Shown: in pieces, positions 26,012 to 32,740 of the stretch | Numbering within the stretch: the first letter of the stretch is position 1 | Layout of the letters: each line of letters begins with the position of its first letter | Assembly: GCA_028705215.1 (NCBI GenBank) | Contig: JAQWDY010000001.1 | Span: 96,785-129,524, forward strand | DNA from: Patescibacteria group bacterium | Lineage (GTDB): Bacteria; Patescibacteriota; Patescibacteriia; Patescibacteriales; UBA12465 | DNA length: 32,740 bases | Direction: 5' to 3' | Notes under the pieces: generated by a model | Seen by the model: the letters and a program-made list of their open reading frames with translations, nothing else | Told to the model about the DNA's origin: nothing | The model's database searches: none | Translations under genes and position numbers: made by a program

Positions 26012-26695
26012 TTATCCCCTTTTTTCATTTTTTTGTTCTTTTTTAAAAATTATGTAGGAAAAAATAGTGAGACTGGCAACCAAAATAATAGAGCCAGCAA
26101 TTATTGTGGGCATAACTAATTTTGGATTTAACCAAGGAAGAGCTATCATAATAAAGCCAAATATTACAAAAAGTTTACCGCTTAAGCGATGAGTTCTATT
26201 CCAAACATTGTCTGAAGAGAGGGTCCAGGGGTTTTTGATGCCAACAAACCAATTTTTTTTGACTTTTCCCAAGTAATTGCCCATAACTATAAAAAGCAAG
26301 CCAATGGTTCCTCCGGTTAAGCCGCCTATATTAAGTTTGTGGCCTAAATTAACGTAAGTAGCTCCAGTAAAAATGACCAAAAGACTAAATAGTAAGGTGT
26401 TTCTAATTATTAAATAGGTTTTAAAGAATTCTTGGTATCGTTTTTTGTTGGGATCTATGGCGGGCGTGATGTTGAGTACTAAATATATAAAGGCGATTAA
26501 TGCGGGAAAGAAAATAGTGTGGAAATTACGACTAGACCAGCCGTCAGCCACGCCCTGGGCGTTCCAGTGGCTTATCACTACTTGTGGTAAGAGAGGATGG
26601 GCAACAAGAGCTATAATTATAGTTGTAACTATGATTAAAATGGGGAATAGCTCAGTTTTTAATGTAAATTTTAAATTTTGTTTGTCTATACTCAT
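26012..26695 (-). CDS. sdpI: SdpI/DUF1648-family membrane protein
   Basis: A 227-residue protein with about six membrane helices. The N-terminal DUF1648 unit has 'ISHWNAQGVADGWSSR' (about 36-51). The C-terminal SdpI unit has 'KNWFVGIKNPWTLSSDNVW' (read in part) and 'NRTHRLSGKLFVIFGF' (about 166-181), both typical. In Bacillus subtilis SdpI gives immunity to the SdpC toxin and keeps the SdpR repressor at the membrane. Many homologues have no known toxin. Here the start codon lies one base past the stop of an ArsR-type regulator gene, the same pairing as sdpRI. No SdpC-like gene is in the window, so an envelope-stress or immunity role is inferred. Confidence 0.85.
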   Translation of the reverse strand: MSIDKQNLKFTLKTELFPILIIVTTIIIALVAHPLLPQVVISHWNAQGVADGWSSRNFHTIFFPALIAFIYLVLNITPAIDPNKKRYQEFFKTYLIIRNTLLFSLLVIFTGATYVNLGHKLNIGGLTGGTIGLLFIVMGNYLGKVKKNWFVGIKNPWTLSSDNVWNRTHRLSGKLFVIFGFIMIALPWLNPKLVMPTIIAGSIILVASLTIFSYIIFKKEQKNEKRG

Positions 26696-26696
26696 A

Positions 26697-26960
26697 TTAT
26701 TTTTTTATTAATTTTGTTATTGCTATCAACAACTCTTCGCTTACACTAAGATTAAGAGAATAGAAAATATTTTTGCCTTGGCGACGAGAGCTTATAAGAC
26801 CAATTTTTTTTAAAACATCAAGATGGTGGGAAAGCGTTGCTAGTGTGATATCAAGATTTTTAGAAATTTCTCCTACGTTTAACTCTGACCTCTTTAATAA
26901 TTGAATAATTTTTTGACGATTTTTATCGGCTAAGGCGTTTAGTATTTGTGATAAGCTCAT
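26697..26960 (-). CDS. sdpR: ArsR/SdpR-family winged-helix regulator
   Basis: An 87-residue ArsR-type regulator. The HTH reads 'LNVGEISKNLDITLATLSHHLDVLKKIGLI' (in two parts over about 28-57), and the wing 'SRRQGKNIFYSLN' follows. It lacks the Cys metal sites of metal-sensing ArsR proteins, and its 'LSHHLDVLKKIGL' segment is typical of SdpR. It should repress its own operon; a six-base-arm dyad at 26971-26986 lies at the expected transcription start, just before its ATG. The SdpI gene follows at once, so the pair forms an autoregulated unit. The gene name is given by pairing and family resemblance. Confidence 0.85.
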   Translation of the reverse strand: MSLSQILNALADKNRQKIIQLLKRSELNVGEISKNLDITLATLSHHLDVLKKIGLISSRRQGKNIFYSLNLSVSEELLIAITKLIKK

Positions 26961-29460: not shown

Positions 29461-30108
29461 CTATTCTTTTGCTATATTTTCTGAAACTCTTATTATTAAA
29501 TCATTAGCCTCCTCTTCATTTATTATAGTTCCAGTTTTATTTCTATTTATTTTATCAAAAAATTTATCAATTCCAGCTAGTTTCAATGCTTCTATTTCTT
29601 TATTTATACCATAACTATCTCCTAGTTTTTCTAGAGTTAAATTAATATCTATAGTGCCACAAAAGAAATCATATAGATCTTTGAAAGAATTAAAATCTTC
29701 TATTTTTAATTCTCCTTTACACTTTTGAAATTCACCTTCAAGTCTTTCGATAAATTCGGGATAGTATTTAACGGCTCTACTCCAACCACGAGAATATGCA
29801 TCCTGCTCTTTTTGTATGTTGAAACTTTGCTCGGGATTAATATTGATAAACTCATCTTGACGTAAATGACCCAGTTCATGTATTATGGCTGCAAATGAAA
29901 AAAATTTATCTCCCTTTGGATACCTTACTTCAAAATTATCACCTTCGATAATACGACCGGAACCTTGAACCTCTAAAGGCCAGTTCAAGACTTTAAAAAA
30001 CTCTTTATTTTCCAAATAGTTCATTAATTCTTCTAATGCTATTATATTTTCAGGCTTTATAGAAAATCTTGGTTTTTCCTGATAAAATTGTTCTTTCATT
30101 TTCTCCAT
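29461..30108 (-). CDS. HELGH zinc metallopeptidase-like protein
   Basis: A 215-residue protein without signal peptide or membrane helix, so cytoplasmic. The zinc site is H77-E-L-G-H81, followed 20 residues later by 'EQDAYSRGW' (101-109), where E101 is the likely third ligand of a gluzincin-type site. The region before it, 'FEVRYPKGDKFFSFAAIIHE', fits the helix that carries HExxH. The C-terminal 90 residues are helical and polar. Similar HELGH/E-x-D-A-x-x-x-G-W proteins occur in mobile and accessory regions, sometimes as regulators that cleave repressors (ImmA type), but no HTH partner lies next to it here. It stands alone with its own promoter. Confidence 0.65.
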   Translation of the reverse strand: MEKMKEQFYQEKPRFSIKPENIIALEELMNYLENKEFFKVLNWPLEVQGSGRIIEGDNFEVRYPKGDKFFSFAAIIHELGHLRQDEFININPEQSFNIQKEQDAYSRGWSRAVKYYPEFIERLEGEFQKCKGELKIEDFNSFKDLYDFFCGTIDINLTLEKLGDSYGINKEIEALKLAGIDKFFDKINRNKTGTIINEEEANDLIIRVSENIAKE

Positions 30109-30136: not shown

Positions 30137-30167
30137 TACCATTTCAAAGCGATAAACTCCCTATCAA

Positions 30168-30192
30168 AAATAGCCCATATTTAGGACTATTT
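30168..30192 (-). terminator. Intrinsic terminator downstream of the gene at 30363
   Basis: Nine-base arms AAATAGCCC/GGACTATTT with one mismatch and loop ATATTTA, followed on the minus strand by a T-run. It resembles the terminator at 3934-3963 in sequence. Confidence 0.7.
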
Positions 30193-30197
30193 ATAAT

Positions 30198-30241
30198 CTG
30201 CGGGCTACCTCGGGCTGGAACCGTGGTTTCGGTAAGCCCAG
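30198..30241. other. GC-rich structured element in the AT-rich spacer
   Basis: About 44 bases that stand out as GC-rich. GGGCT-ACC (30202-30209) pairs with GGT-AGCCC (30231-30239, one bulge). A second CGGGCT at 30211-30216 can pair with the same AGCCC arm, so two folds compete. It lies about 120 bases past the stop at 30363 and just before the terminator at 30168-30192. On the minus strand part of it resembles a tRNA T arm, but no complete tRNA can be drawn. It may be a small RNA or a 3' UTR element. Confidence 0.4.
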
Positions 30242-30362
30242 TAAGGCTTTTCGGTGATATTTAAAGTATTCAATAAATAAGATCCTCGCGCACTATGGTT
30301 TTTCTTAAAAAGTGACAAAAGTAACACGAGTATTAAATATATAGTTACAGTTAGATGTAATC

Positions 30363-30911
30363 TTATTCGTCAGCAATAAATTCCAATATTTCTCTGGTTG
30401 TCCTAATTTGCTTACCATTAGGTAGTTTTATAGTTGTTTCTATTTTTTCTGTTACCTCCTCTGGCGCTTGTTGATTATCCTCTACCCTTATTTCTCCAGT
30501 TGTACCATCAATTACTATATGGACCTTACTGCCAGAACCATCTCTTTTACCAACCAAAACATGCTGATCCTCACCCTGTATTCTTGATTCAATAAAGAAC
30601 TGATCGTCACCAATTCTTTTTTTAATAGTTTTTTCTGCTAAATATTGCTGGAAAATATCAATATATTTCTCTATTTTTTGCCAGGCATTATCAACCGGAA
30701 AGCCTGCTGAATTAGACCACCAAGAATCTGGTTTTGCGTTTGAAGTAATTTTTCTTAATCTTAAACCTGGTAAAGAGCTTACATCTAAAACTGAATTTAA
30801 ATATTCAAGGATAGTGTCACGAATTTTTACAGCTTCACTAGTTAATAATAAATTCTCTCTTAAGGCAGTTTCATTGCTCCAAATTAATTTTGATATTTCT
30901 TTGTCATTCAT
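30363..30911 (-). CDS. Cytoplasmic protein of unknown function in the nuclease/peptidase operon
   Basis: I do not recognise it. The 182 residues have no signal or membrane helix. The N-terminal half is helical and contains 'KPDSWWSNSAGFPVDNAW' (about 60-77), a Trp-rich stretch that may be a conserved core. The middle is strand-rich, 'FFIESRIQGEDQHVLVGKRD', then 'KVHIVIDGTTGEIRVED'. The end reads 'IKLPNGKQIRTTREILEFI', like a short beta-hairpin plus helix. It starts three bases after the S51 peptidase stop and is the last gene of a three-gene operon with a PD-(D/E)XK nuclease. A structural or specificity role in that operon is possible but not shown. Confidence 0.6.
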   Translation of the reverse strand: MNDKEISKLIWSNETALRENLLLTSEAVKIRDTILEYLNSVLDVSSLPGLRLRKITSNAKPDSWWSNSAGFPVDNAWQKIEKYIDIFQQYLAEKTIKKRIGDDQFFIESRIQGEDQHVLVGKRDGSGSKVHIVIDGTTGEIRVEDNQQAPEEVTEKIETTIKLPNGKQIRTTREILEFIADE

Positions 30912-30914
30912 ACC

Positions 30915-31523
30915 TTATAAGTCTTTGTTTATATAATGAAATACCGAGTTTTTCAAAATAAAAGCTTGATTATCTTCTAATTCAATAATCGGATATCCAG
31001 TTCTTTTTTTAAACTCATCTAACTGCGGTTTTAATTCTTTTCTGTAATGAGGGTAAATTATATAATCAGTTAAACAGAGGCCCTTTAAATCTGTGAGTCC
31101 GATATCATTAGGGTCTTCGTCCCCAGCAATGGCTATATCTGGTCCTGCTAGAATACTGCCAGCACTAACACCAACATACGTGCTATTTTCTTTTTTAGCA
31201 AAATCCAATATAAACCTATAGAGCCCAGTTTTTCTTACTCTATCTAAATAATCAAAAGTATTACCTCCACAAACAAAGATTACGTCATATTCTTTACTAG
31301 CGGTAAATTTTTCATTTCCTAATTTAAAAACATCAATATCCTGAGCCCCCGTATTTTTTATTTCACTTAATGTTTTCTCTAAATAAAAAGCGTCCTGCTC
31401 TGAGTCTTGAATTGAAATAACTAAAAAAGATAAATCTTTAGGCTCTTTTGGCAAAAAGCTTGTTTCGAAATGACGTGAAATATCTATATTTTCTAAACCT
31501 GTTGATGTTAAAAATAGTTTCAT
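30915..31523 (-). CDS. Peptidase S51 family protein (dipeptidase E-like)
   Basis: A 202-residue protein with the class I glutamine-amidotransferase-like fold of family S51. 'VIFVCGGNTF' (81-90) and 'GVSAGSILAGPDI' (118-130) hold the nucleophile S120, the same elbow as in PepE and cyanophycinase. H159 in 'IYPHY' is the likely catalytic His, with an Asp near 135-137 as third member. PepE cleaves N-terminal Asp-X dipeptides; other members act on cyanophycin or modified peptides. No signal peptide is present, so it acts in the cytoplasm. It sits between the nuclease-like and unknown genes with gaps of 10 and 3 bases, which is unusual company for a housekeeping peptidase. Confidence 0.85.
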   Translation of the reverse strand: MKLFLTSTGLENIDISRHFETSFLPKEPKDLSFLVISIQDSEQDAFYLEKTLSEIKNTGAQDIDVFKLGNEKFTASKEYDVIFVCGGNTFDYLDRVRKTGLYRFILDFAKKENSTYVGVSAGSILAGPDIAIAGDEDPNDIGLTDLKGLCLTDYIIYPHYRKELKPQLDEFKKRTGYPIIELEDNQAFILKNSVFHYINKDL

Positions 31524-31533
31524 ATTTTAAAAA

Positions 31534-32007
31534 TTAATTATCCTGCTCAAATCTCTTTAATATCTGCAAATAATCATTTTGAATATCACCATTAATTTTA
31601 GGATGATTTAACTTAGCTATTTCTCCATTATTTTTAATAATATTTACTATTTCATCCATATAAAATCCATCCAAAGTGGCAATAAATAGATACGACGGAT
31701 TCCAGGATTGACTCATTCTGTTCGCAGCCTTAAGCGTATATTCCGAGCTTAAAGAACGCTGATATTTAACCTCTATTAATTTTACCTGTCTAGTGTCCCT
31801 ATCAATAACCGCAAAATCAGGGGCCGTCCTTAATGTTTCAATCATCGGGTTGCTTTCATTAAACCCCTGCTGAATCATTTCGGGGATTACTTTTTCATAA
31901 CCAAATTCCAAGACAGTAAAATTGCCCGATTCTCTAAACATCTGTGAAAATATTGTCTCAGCAATTTTACCTTTAACCAGTTGTCTGGTGAAGTTGATGT
32001 TGCTCAT
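31534..32007 (-). CDS. PD-(D/E)XK nuclease-like protein
   Basis: A 157-residue protein with the core of the PD-(D/E)XK restriction-endonuclease-like fold. E17 lies in the first helix ('VKGKIAETIF'), P63-D64 in 'TAPDFAVID', and E79-V-K81 in 'VKLIEVKYQ'. The spacing D64-x14-E79-x-K81 and the helix after it ('TLKAANRMSQ') match the fold. All metal-binding residues are present, so it could be active. The domain covers nearly the whole protein and there is no obvious DNA-recognition domain. It leads a three-gene operon and lies 72 bases downstream of an IS-cut gene. A defence, repair or mobile-element role is plausible. A non-nuclease PD-(D/E)XK protein is the main alternative. Confidence 0.75.
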   Translation of the reverse strand: MSNINFTRQLVKGKIAETIFSQMFRESGNFTVLEFGYEKVIPEMIQQGFNESNPMIETLRTAPDFAVIDRDTRQVKLIEVKYQRSLSSEYTLKAANRMSQSWNPSYLFIATLDGFYMDEIVNIIKNNGEIAKLNHPKINGDIQNDYLQILKRFEQDN

Positions 32008-32079: not shown

Positions 32080-32643
32080 TTATCCTAAATAATAATAGTC
32101 TAAATAATAATAGTCGTTTTCTAATTCTGGCATCGCCACATCATCCTCGTAAACTTCCTGAATTTCTTCATTTTGATTGACTTCAACGCCGTCCTCATAT
32201 TCCTCATAATCAACAGGACTCTTCCAGCCCTCCTCGTCTCGTTCACTTTCATAACGCAAATTCTGCATGTCTTTTTTTACTGACTCCGGCAACATATCTT
32301 CGCAATTATAACCAAGCTCTGGCAAGTAATAAGCAAGTGCGCTTAAGTTATCATAAGAAACTAATTTTTCTGCTATTTTATTCTTTATGTTTATCTTCTT
32401 TATATTAATCTTTTCTAGTTTTTCAATATTATCAAAAGAAATTAAATTAGAATGCGAATAAGCAATAAAATTAATAATGTCGTCTAAATAGCCATTAAAA
32501 GTATCTATATTATTAAGTATAAACTCAAAATTATTGGAATCTGCTAATTTTTTTATAAACTCTTTTGTAAAATCTAGACATGATTCAGGAGTGCTAATAT
32601 AACATGTCACCCAATTGGAAGGTACCCATTTTCTTAGACACAT
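32080..32643 (-). CDS. Acidic protein of unknown function, 5' end probably replaced by an IS element
   Basis: The frame runs from an ATG at 32643, but the first dozen codons lie in what looks like the end of an IS3-type element, so the original start was probably lost. The remaining part is not recognised: helical and Asn/Ile/Lys-rich ('FTKEFIKKLADSNNFEFIL', 'INIKKINIKNKIAEKLVS'), with 'LSALAYYLPELGYNCEDMLP' in the middle. It ends in a strongly acidic tail with 'EEYEDGVEVNQNEEIQEVYE' and a Tyr-rich end in which YYYLD is repeated. The tail's codons form a perfect 15-bp tandem repeat. It may be a pseudogene remnant or be expressed from inside the IS. Confidence 0.5.
   Translation of the reverse strand: MCLRKWVPSNWVTCYISTPESCLDFTKEFIKKLADSNNFEFILNNIDTFNGYLDDIINFIAYSHSNLISFDNIEKLEKINIKKINIKNKIAEKLVSYDNLSALAYYLPELGYNCEDMLPESVKKDMQNLRYESERDEEGWKSPVDYEEYEDGVEVNQNEEIQEVYEDDVAMPELENDYYYLDYYYLG
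32085..32114. repeat. Perfect 15-bp tandem repeat at the 3' end of the acidic gene
   Basis: CTAAATAATAATAGT occurs at 32085-32099 and again at 32100-32114. In the minus-strand gene it encodes a duplicated Asp-Tyr-Tyr-Tyr-Leu unit just before the stop. Confidence 0.85.
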
Positions 32644-32740
32644 TGTCCACGGGTCAATTGATATTGCCGACTGTACATTACAGGCGGCATTTTTAATTTA
32701 GTATGTATTCTGGTGTTGTTGTAGACATGGATAGTCCTGT
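32605..32740 (-). mobile_element. IS3-like insertion sequence, end cut by window
   Basis: The sequence from about 32605 or 32616 ('GGTACCCATTTTCTTAGACAC' region) to the right edge looks like the terminal part of an IS3-family element. A transposase C-terminus ends at 32693, and the gap to the presumed element end is the usual length of less than 100 bases. The exact inverted repeat cannot be fixed because the other end is outside the window. Confidence 0.5.
32693..32740 (-). CDS. IS3-family transposase, C-terminal fragment
   Basis: Only the last 15 codons are in the window: 'TGLSMSTTTPEYILN' then TAA. The 'GL-x-M-x-T-x-x-x-P-x-E-Y-x-L' end is how the integrase-core domain of many IS3-type transposases ends. 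The rest lies to the right of the window. Only a short fragment supports this, so the family is tentative. Confidence 0.5.
   Translation of the reverse strand, partial: TGLSMSTTTPEYILN

Follow-up and report, generated by a model that had tools for sequence, protein, structure and literature searches.

The window, a stretch of 32,740 nucleotides, is the end of contig C9 in the 746-kb genome G000, from a member of the Patescibacteria. Three genes are transcribed from its minus strand, following the remnant of a further gene, in the order nuclease, S51 peptidase and 182-aa protein, with gaps of 10 nt between the first two and 3 nt between the last two (Table 1). The tight packing described in the initial annotation was confirmed when the open reading frames were re-read. 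A conserved noncoding tail begins just after the stop codon of the 182-aa gene, and a terminator-like hairpin stands beyond it, though this hairpin is absent from the list of a stricter terminator consensus scan.

Table 1. Features at the locus and in related elements (positions are those of the window unless a locus is named)
Feature	Position	Strand	Basis or remark
Metallopeptidase, HELGH motif	29461-30108		Not part of the cargo; lies past the conserved tail
Hairpin and T-run, terminator-like	30167-30192	-	Sequence inspection
Conserved noncoding tail, 163 bp	30200-30362	-	Copies common to elements with other cargo
182-aa protein, no family or fold match	30363-30911	-	ORF, homolog searches, AF2
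S51 (PepE-like) peptidase, 202 aa	30915-31523	-	Pfam PF03575, PDB matches, triad conservation
PD-(D/E)XK nuclease, 157 aa	31534-32007	-	Family alignment, AF2, Foldseek, dN/dS
IS-cut gene preceding the nuclease, 3′ part only; its C-terminus is acidic	32080-32620	-	ORF reading
IS end: terminal-repeat-like sequence and transposase C-terminus	32621-32740		Coincides with the contig end
Related elements	L015:7567-16957; L032:926-10352; L033:5958-15001 (continued in L052); L034:8095-13508 (continued in L053)

The front of the operon is unreadable because the contig ends at an insertion sequence. Positions 32635-32738 encode RTIHVYNNTRIHTKLKMPPV.., a C-terminal piece of a transposase-like protein, which we take to be of the IS3/IS481 type. 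The open reading frame at 32080-32643 begins within the IS end; only the 3′ part of this cut gene is left, and no homolog of it was found among the 111 genomes of the order; no further copies of the IS were found in the assembled contigs of G000. Since the IS has removed the operon front, expression is doubtful, and the sequence suggests that the module may be silent or inactive in this genome. The initial annotation had placed the genes in an accessory stretch together with a metallopeptidase and an IS element. The accessory, mobile character of the stretch stands, but the metallopeptidase lies outside the cargo and only the end of the IS is present. Elsewhere in the window (26012-26960), an SdpI/DUF1648 membrane protein adjoins an 87-aa protein resembling ArsR-type regulators, an SdpI/SdpR-like pair.

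The three proteins and the recurrence of their genes

By its predicted core fold and its active-site pattern, the 157-aa protein is a PD-(D/E)XK nuclease, as had been proposed. An alignment of 27 full-length relatives over their whole length shows E17, D64, E79 and K81 to be invariant and P63 nearly so, which gives the E17, P63-D64, E79-x-K81 arrangement of the superfamily. The AF2 model (pLDDT 89.5) was matched by Foldseek to PA endonuclease (probability 1.00, E 8e-4), Hjc (0.99) and RecU (0.91-0.98) in the PDB. The core fold and the E..PD..ExK pattern are shared with Hjc, RecU, the influenza PA endonuclease and restriction enzymes; the protein differs from known PD-(D/E)XK enzymes in having no database family and in being almost restricted to Patescibacteria. 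Pfam returned sub-threshold matches only (HSDR_N_2 0.011, TnsA_N 0.016), and no Pfam, NCBIfam or PADLOC family was found above threshold. In a scan of 84,980 genomes the family was almost confined to Patescibacteria, and searches with the nuclease gave no relatives in IMG/VR or plasmid records and no match in phage records. The family is uncatalogued. Among close homologs dN/dS is 0.01-0.03, with synonymous sites near saturation in several pairs, and the 95-96% protein identity seen between families therefore reflects constraint rather than recent transfer alone.

The second protein matches Pfam PF03575 (6.6e-21; 75 bits against a curated cut-off of 23.9) and, in the PDB, Lmo0363 (4e-14) and peptidase E. 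Its candidate triad, S120, H159 and D184, is invariant in 15 Patescibacteria S51 homologs, and similarity above the cut-off together with an intact Ser-His-Asp triad bears out its initial assignment to the S51 family. The Pfam family, the triad and the GxSAGS nucleophile motif are common to PepE, Lmo0363 and MccG, from which the window protein is set apart by its place in an operon with a nuclease. The remaining Patescibacteria S51 proteins that turned up share just 30-39% identity with it. Distant S51 genes of this kind, at about 30% identity, occur in 40/111 genomes of the order, many of them standalone and typically among unrelated genes, which in part fits the alternative of an ordinary housekeeping peptidase. 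The clade of the trio was not seen alone in this survey.

The initial annotation also raised the combination of nuclease and peptidase known from defence modules in which proteolysis activates a nuclease. Characterised S51 enzymes hydrolyse Asp-X dipeptides, cyanophycin or isoaspartyl-nucleotides (PMC9239234), and no cleavage target is indicated here. Proteolytic activation of the nuclease is therefore unsupported, though conceivable. A literature search in the library consulted found no paper on S51 peptidases in defence.

The 182-aa protein, first described as Trp-rich, contains about four tryptophans and is not notably rich in them. Its AF2 model (pLDDT 83.6) has a helical N-terminal part and a C-terminal beta module (residues about 93-180), and no PDB fold matched it with an E-value better than 0.17. 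It belongs to no Pfam, NCBIfam or PADLOC family, and IMG/VR and plasmid records held no relatives. A match to DUF7717 (0.063) was rejected, as homologs of the protein had no such match. The C-terminal module recurs in a 309-aa protein (L018) and, beside a weak DUF5677 match, in a 430-aa protein (L089).

The exact trio, in the same order and with identical gaps, was found again in G068/ADurb.Bin115 and UR.bin240 (L015, L059, L060). L015 belongs to another genus than G000 and keeps the order and both gaps, in agreement with the proposal of a single operon. In a further locus, L061, an S49 peptidase gene and an HD_4 gene come between the nuclease and the S51 peptidase (91%), after which stand the 182-aa protein (99%) and the tail, and a helicase resembling those of Mko, Hhe and PDC-S37 lies upstream of the nuclease. 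The label of this locus as Bacilli is probably a binning error. G032 has an intact nuclease with decayed S51 and 182-aa genes, and in G043 the 182-aa gene is present at a contig edge. Every genome in the comparison is a draft or metagenome assembly, and many of the records are metagenome bins. Across the trio dN/dS is 0.01-0.13, indicating purifying selection on all three genes. When G000 is compared with L061, dS declines from gene to gene along the operon (0.59, 0.34 and 0.05), which suggests piecewise recombination.

Within the order, the nuclease occurs in 8/111 genomes and the 182-aa protein in 5/111, four of them with the short form. The short form and the nuclease share 3/111 genomes (P about 0.001), and most nuclease-bearing genomes have the nuclease without the other two genes. 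A second genus shows this order and these gaps, and purifying selection acts on each of the three genes, which makes the grouping more than chance. The co-occurrence stems from one mobile lineage, however, and co-inheritance in a single lineage is no proof of joint function. At L076:6564-8459 an S51 peptidase, an alpha/beta-hydrolase-like gene and a nuclease of the same family stand in a tight row with few-base gaps; this may be coincidence or, possibly, an independent pairing of S51 and nuclease.

The conserved tail and its mobile element

Besides the window copy, the tail was found in 12 others (L015, L017, L032, L033, L034, L061, L117-L121). In 13/13 copies it lies directly 3′ of the preceding gene and on the same strand, and these genes are very different from one another. 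Terminator-like hairpins, unrelated in sequence, follow most copies, and a TAGC.CACGAGGATC-like motif is repeated in and after some of them (L119, L120). Candidate readings of the tail are a recombination anchor, an attachment site, a packaging signal or a 3′ UTR element. An Rfam search of the tail gave no RNA family. On inspection, an AAGCC/GGCTT stem proved to be disrupted in both G772 and G630; compensatory pairing therefore lacks support, and a structured RNA was rejected. An integron attC site was likewise set aside, as RYYYAAC/GTTRRRY core sites were not seen at the aligned tail ends and no integron integrase was seen among the ORFs near tails; no tRNA stands at the tails that would make them tRNA-type attachment sites. 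Five matches to the tail pattern in IMG/VR were all chance hits within genes.

In four relatives (G065, G068, G073, G083) the cargo sits between the tail and a conserved block that encodes a serine recombinase, TerL, TerS and a ParB-methyltransferase in 4/4 and, in 3/4, also a 132-aa protein, an S24 repressor and an HTH protein. Element blocks are 77-90% identical in DNA among relatives, and the cargo differs. In G065 it is a CBASS system (SMODS 5.5e-12, S_4TM 1.5e-65), in G083 the PADLOC candidate PDC-S53 (1342 bits), in G073 a PIN/TM protein and in G068 the PIN/TM protein plus the trio, where 'PIN/TM' is a putative label read from the sequence, with no matching family. The CBASS operon (L034:8258-11126) comprises a CD-NTase with a SMODS domain, an S_4TM effector and proteins of 86 and 250 aa. 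Beyond the recombinase, the elements have further genes that read as restriction-type or diversity-generating. Beside the G083 element (L033:2730-3389 and L052:1633-4134), a reverse transcriptase and proteins with similar C-termini resemble a diversity-generating retroelement. A second tail copy in G068 (L015:4443-5038) directly follows a DUF5680 protein that comes after two radical-SAM-like genes, and looks like the cargo of an older, decayed element.

The core TerL was found in 8/111 genomes of the order and in six IMG/VR contigs (L046-L051); its similarity to phage records is distant, below 30% among the matches listed. No capsid, portal or tail families were recognised among the core and unknown ORFs scanned in the relatives' elements. 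Integrase, repressor and terminase genes, with variable defence cargo near one end, are shared with PICI-type phage satellites, a combination without capsid genes that holds for the relatives and not for the window copy, which has no core. Unlike PICIs, these elements have a core with a serine recombinase and a ParB-methyltransferase, Patescibacteria as hosts and extra defence-type cargo beyond the recombinase; the likeness is one of gene content. Our literature search found no paper on satellites in Patescibacteria in the library consulted. The element core was not found in G000, where the only match was a TerL of 27% identity in a separate phage-like region on contig C35 (L058). Because the core is absent from the assembly, we infer that the window copy represents the cargo-bearing end of an element that was lost or escaped assembly, either a remnant or cut by the contig end.

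Defence genes beside the nuclease family

Independently of the tail, a defence or restriction gene lies within about 1.5 kb of the nuclease in 14/27 loci (13 by PADLOC and one by eye); at roughly half of the loci no defence gene was recognised close by. The neighbours include Shedu (L064), DpnI (L067, L082), type IV Mrr (L074), HsdR (L078, L085), a type IIG enzyme (L082), PDC-S18 with a methyltransferase (L077), HEC-05 (L075), PDC-S37/Mko/Hhe-like helicases (L061, L070), an AriA/OLD-like ATPase (L073), a type II methyltransferase or HNH gene (L065, L068) and methyltransferases seen by eye (L020). The nuclease ORF overlaps the preceding gene by 8 nt in L015 and by 4 nt in L061, and lies 16-18 nt from the Shedu and Mrr genes. 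As a control, about 22 generic S51 loci showed no defence gene by eye, and a partial scan of ten control neighbours gave two generic matches (an NYN nuclease and a methyltransferase-like protein). The difference corresponds to a Fisher P of about 2e-5, which rises to 4e-4 when one control is counted, from a neighbour scan that covered part of the neighbours at nuclease and control loci alike. Together with the CBASS and PDC-S53 cargo of sister elements, these neighbourhoods support the link to defence suggested at the outset.

In PADLOC 2.0 no component HMM matched any gene of the trio up to E=1. CBASS, PDC-S53, Shedu, Mko/Hhe and R-M systems occur in the same slot or directly beside the nuclease, but none of them has a nuclease, S51 or 182-aa component of this kind in PADLOC. 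The statement that the genes belong to no named system held up, as neither the nuclease nor the 182-aa protein has a PADLOC, Pfam or NCBIfam family.

Possible roles of the trio

Cargo exchange at the same slot, intact active sites, purifying selection and the enrichment of the nuclease beside defence genes point to a mobile, defence-linked operon, probably a defence module that has gone unrecorded. We put at roughly 0.5 the probability that these three genes are defence-type cargo that moves between Patescibacteria in a variable slot beside the tail of a satellite-like family of integrative elements. The nuclease would then be a DNA-cutting effector, or a helper that degrades invading DNA, and would work alongside, and be directed by, a distinct recognition gene whose translation immediately precedes its own, such as the PIN/TM gene in G068 or the Mko/Hhe-like helicase set in L061; in G000 the corresponding gene would be the one cut by the IS. 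The 182-aa protein could serve as sensor or adaptor through its C-terminal module, and the S51 enzyme would act on a small aspartyl substrate, not on the nuclease. A quite improbable variant makes the nuclease a shared helper specific to Patescibacteria, added to the operons of many unrelated defence systems, with aspartyl-substrate chemistry controlling it in the version that satellite-like elements carry with the S51 enzyme and the sensor.

Several observations weigh against a defence role. The S51 and 182-aa genes join the nuclease in just one mobile lineage and could be passengers. Genes in an arms race are seldom as strongly constrained as this nuclease, and such constraint would suit an enzyme of repair or recombination that recognises DNA structure. 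The nuclease loci without a recognised defence neighbour, the missing element core in G000 and the many metagenome bins among the records count on the same side. It is unlikely, in our estimate, that the nuclease is a Holliday-junction-resolvase-like enzyme of recombination or repair, or a selfish exchange helper at island boundaries, found near defence genes because islands are its habitat. Hjc and RecU among its fold neighbours, dN/dS of about 0.01 at near-saturated synonymous sites and the recombinases and exchanged cargo of the islands would suit such an enzyme, and in phages, nuclease genes have been described at boundaries of genetic exchange (PMC10448857). The nuclease shows no tie to recombinase genes, however, and is often coupled directly to a defence gene, as the overlaps and short spacings given above illustrate.

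There is some chance, still rather a small one, that the S51 peptidase, perhaps with the 182-aa protein, is a passenger unrelated to the nuclease that detoxifies aspartyl-nucleotides of the microcin C kind or recycles aspartyl dipeptides. MccG enzymes, which make up clade V of S51 and confer resistance to peptidyl-nucleotides, cleave isoaspartyl-nucleotides, are mostly standalone and have Asp as the third triad residue (PMC9239234), as D184 is here, but this Asp is common to all homologs compared. Standalone distant S51 genes in Patescibacteria and the two genes that part the S51/182-aa pair from the nuclease in L061 fit a passenger; the 3-nt gap kept between S51 and 182-aa genes, operon membership in three contexts and a clade not seen alone speak for a lasting association. 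A chance assembly of three unrelated accessory genes in a mobile slot, held together by linkage to the tail, also seems doubtful. It would accommodate the single mobile lineage, the decay of two genes beside an intact nuclease in G032, the solitary nuclease of most genomes and the falling dS, yet it is at odds with the identical gaps and constant gene order and with the purifying selection seen throughout the trio.

Patescibacteria are a huge group, most of it uncultured, and the usual view is that they depend on simple restriction systems. The findings suggest that an uncatalogued family of nucleases goes along with a wide range of defence systems in these bacteria. They also suggest that mobile elements with terminase genes exchange their defence cargo, be it CBASS, PDC-S53 or the trio, at a fixed, tail-marked slot. 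The tail and the element core offer a direct handle for finding further, unrecorded defence genes.
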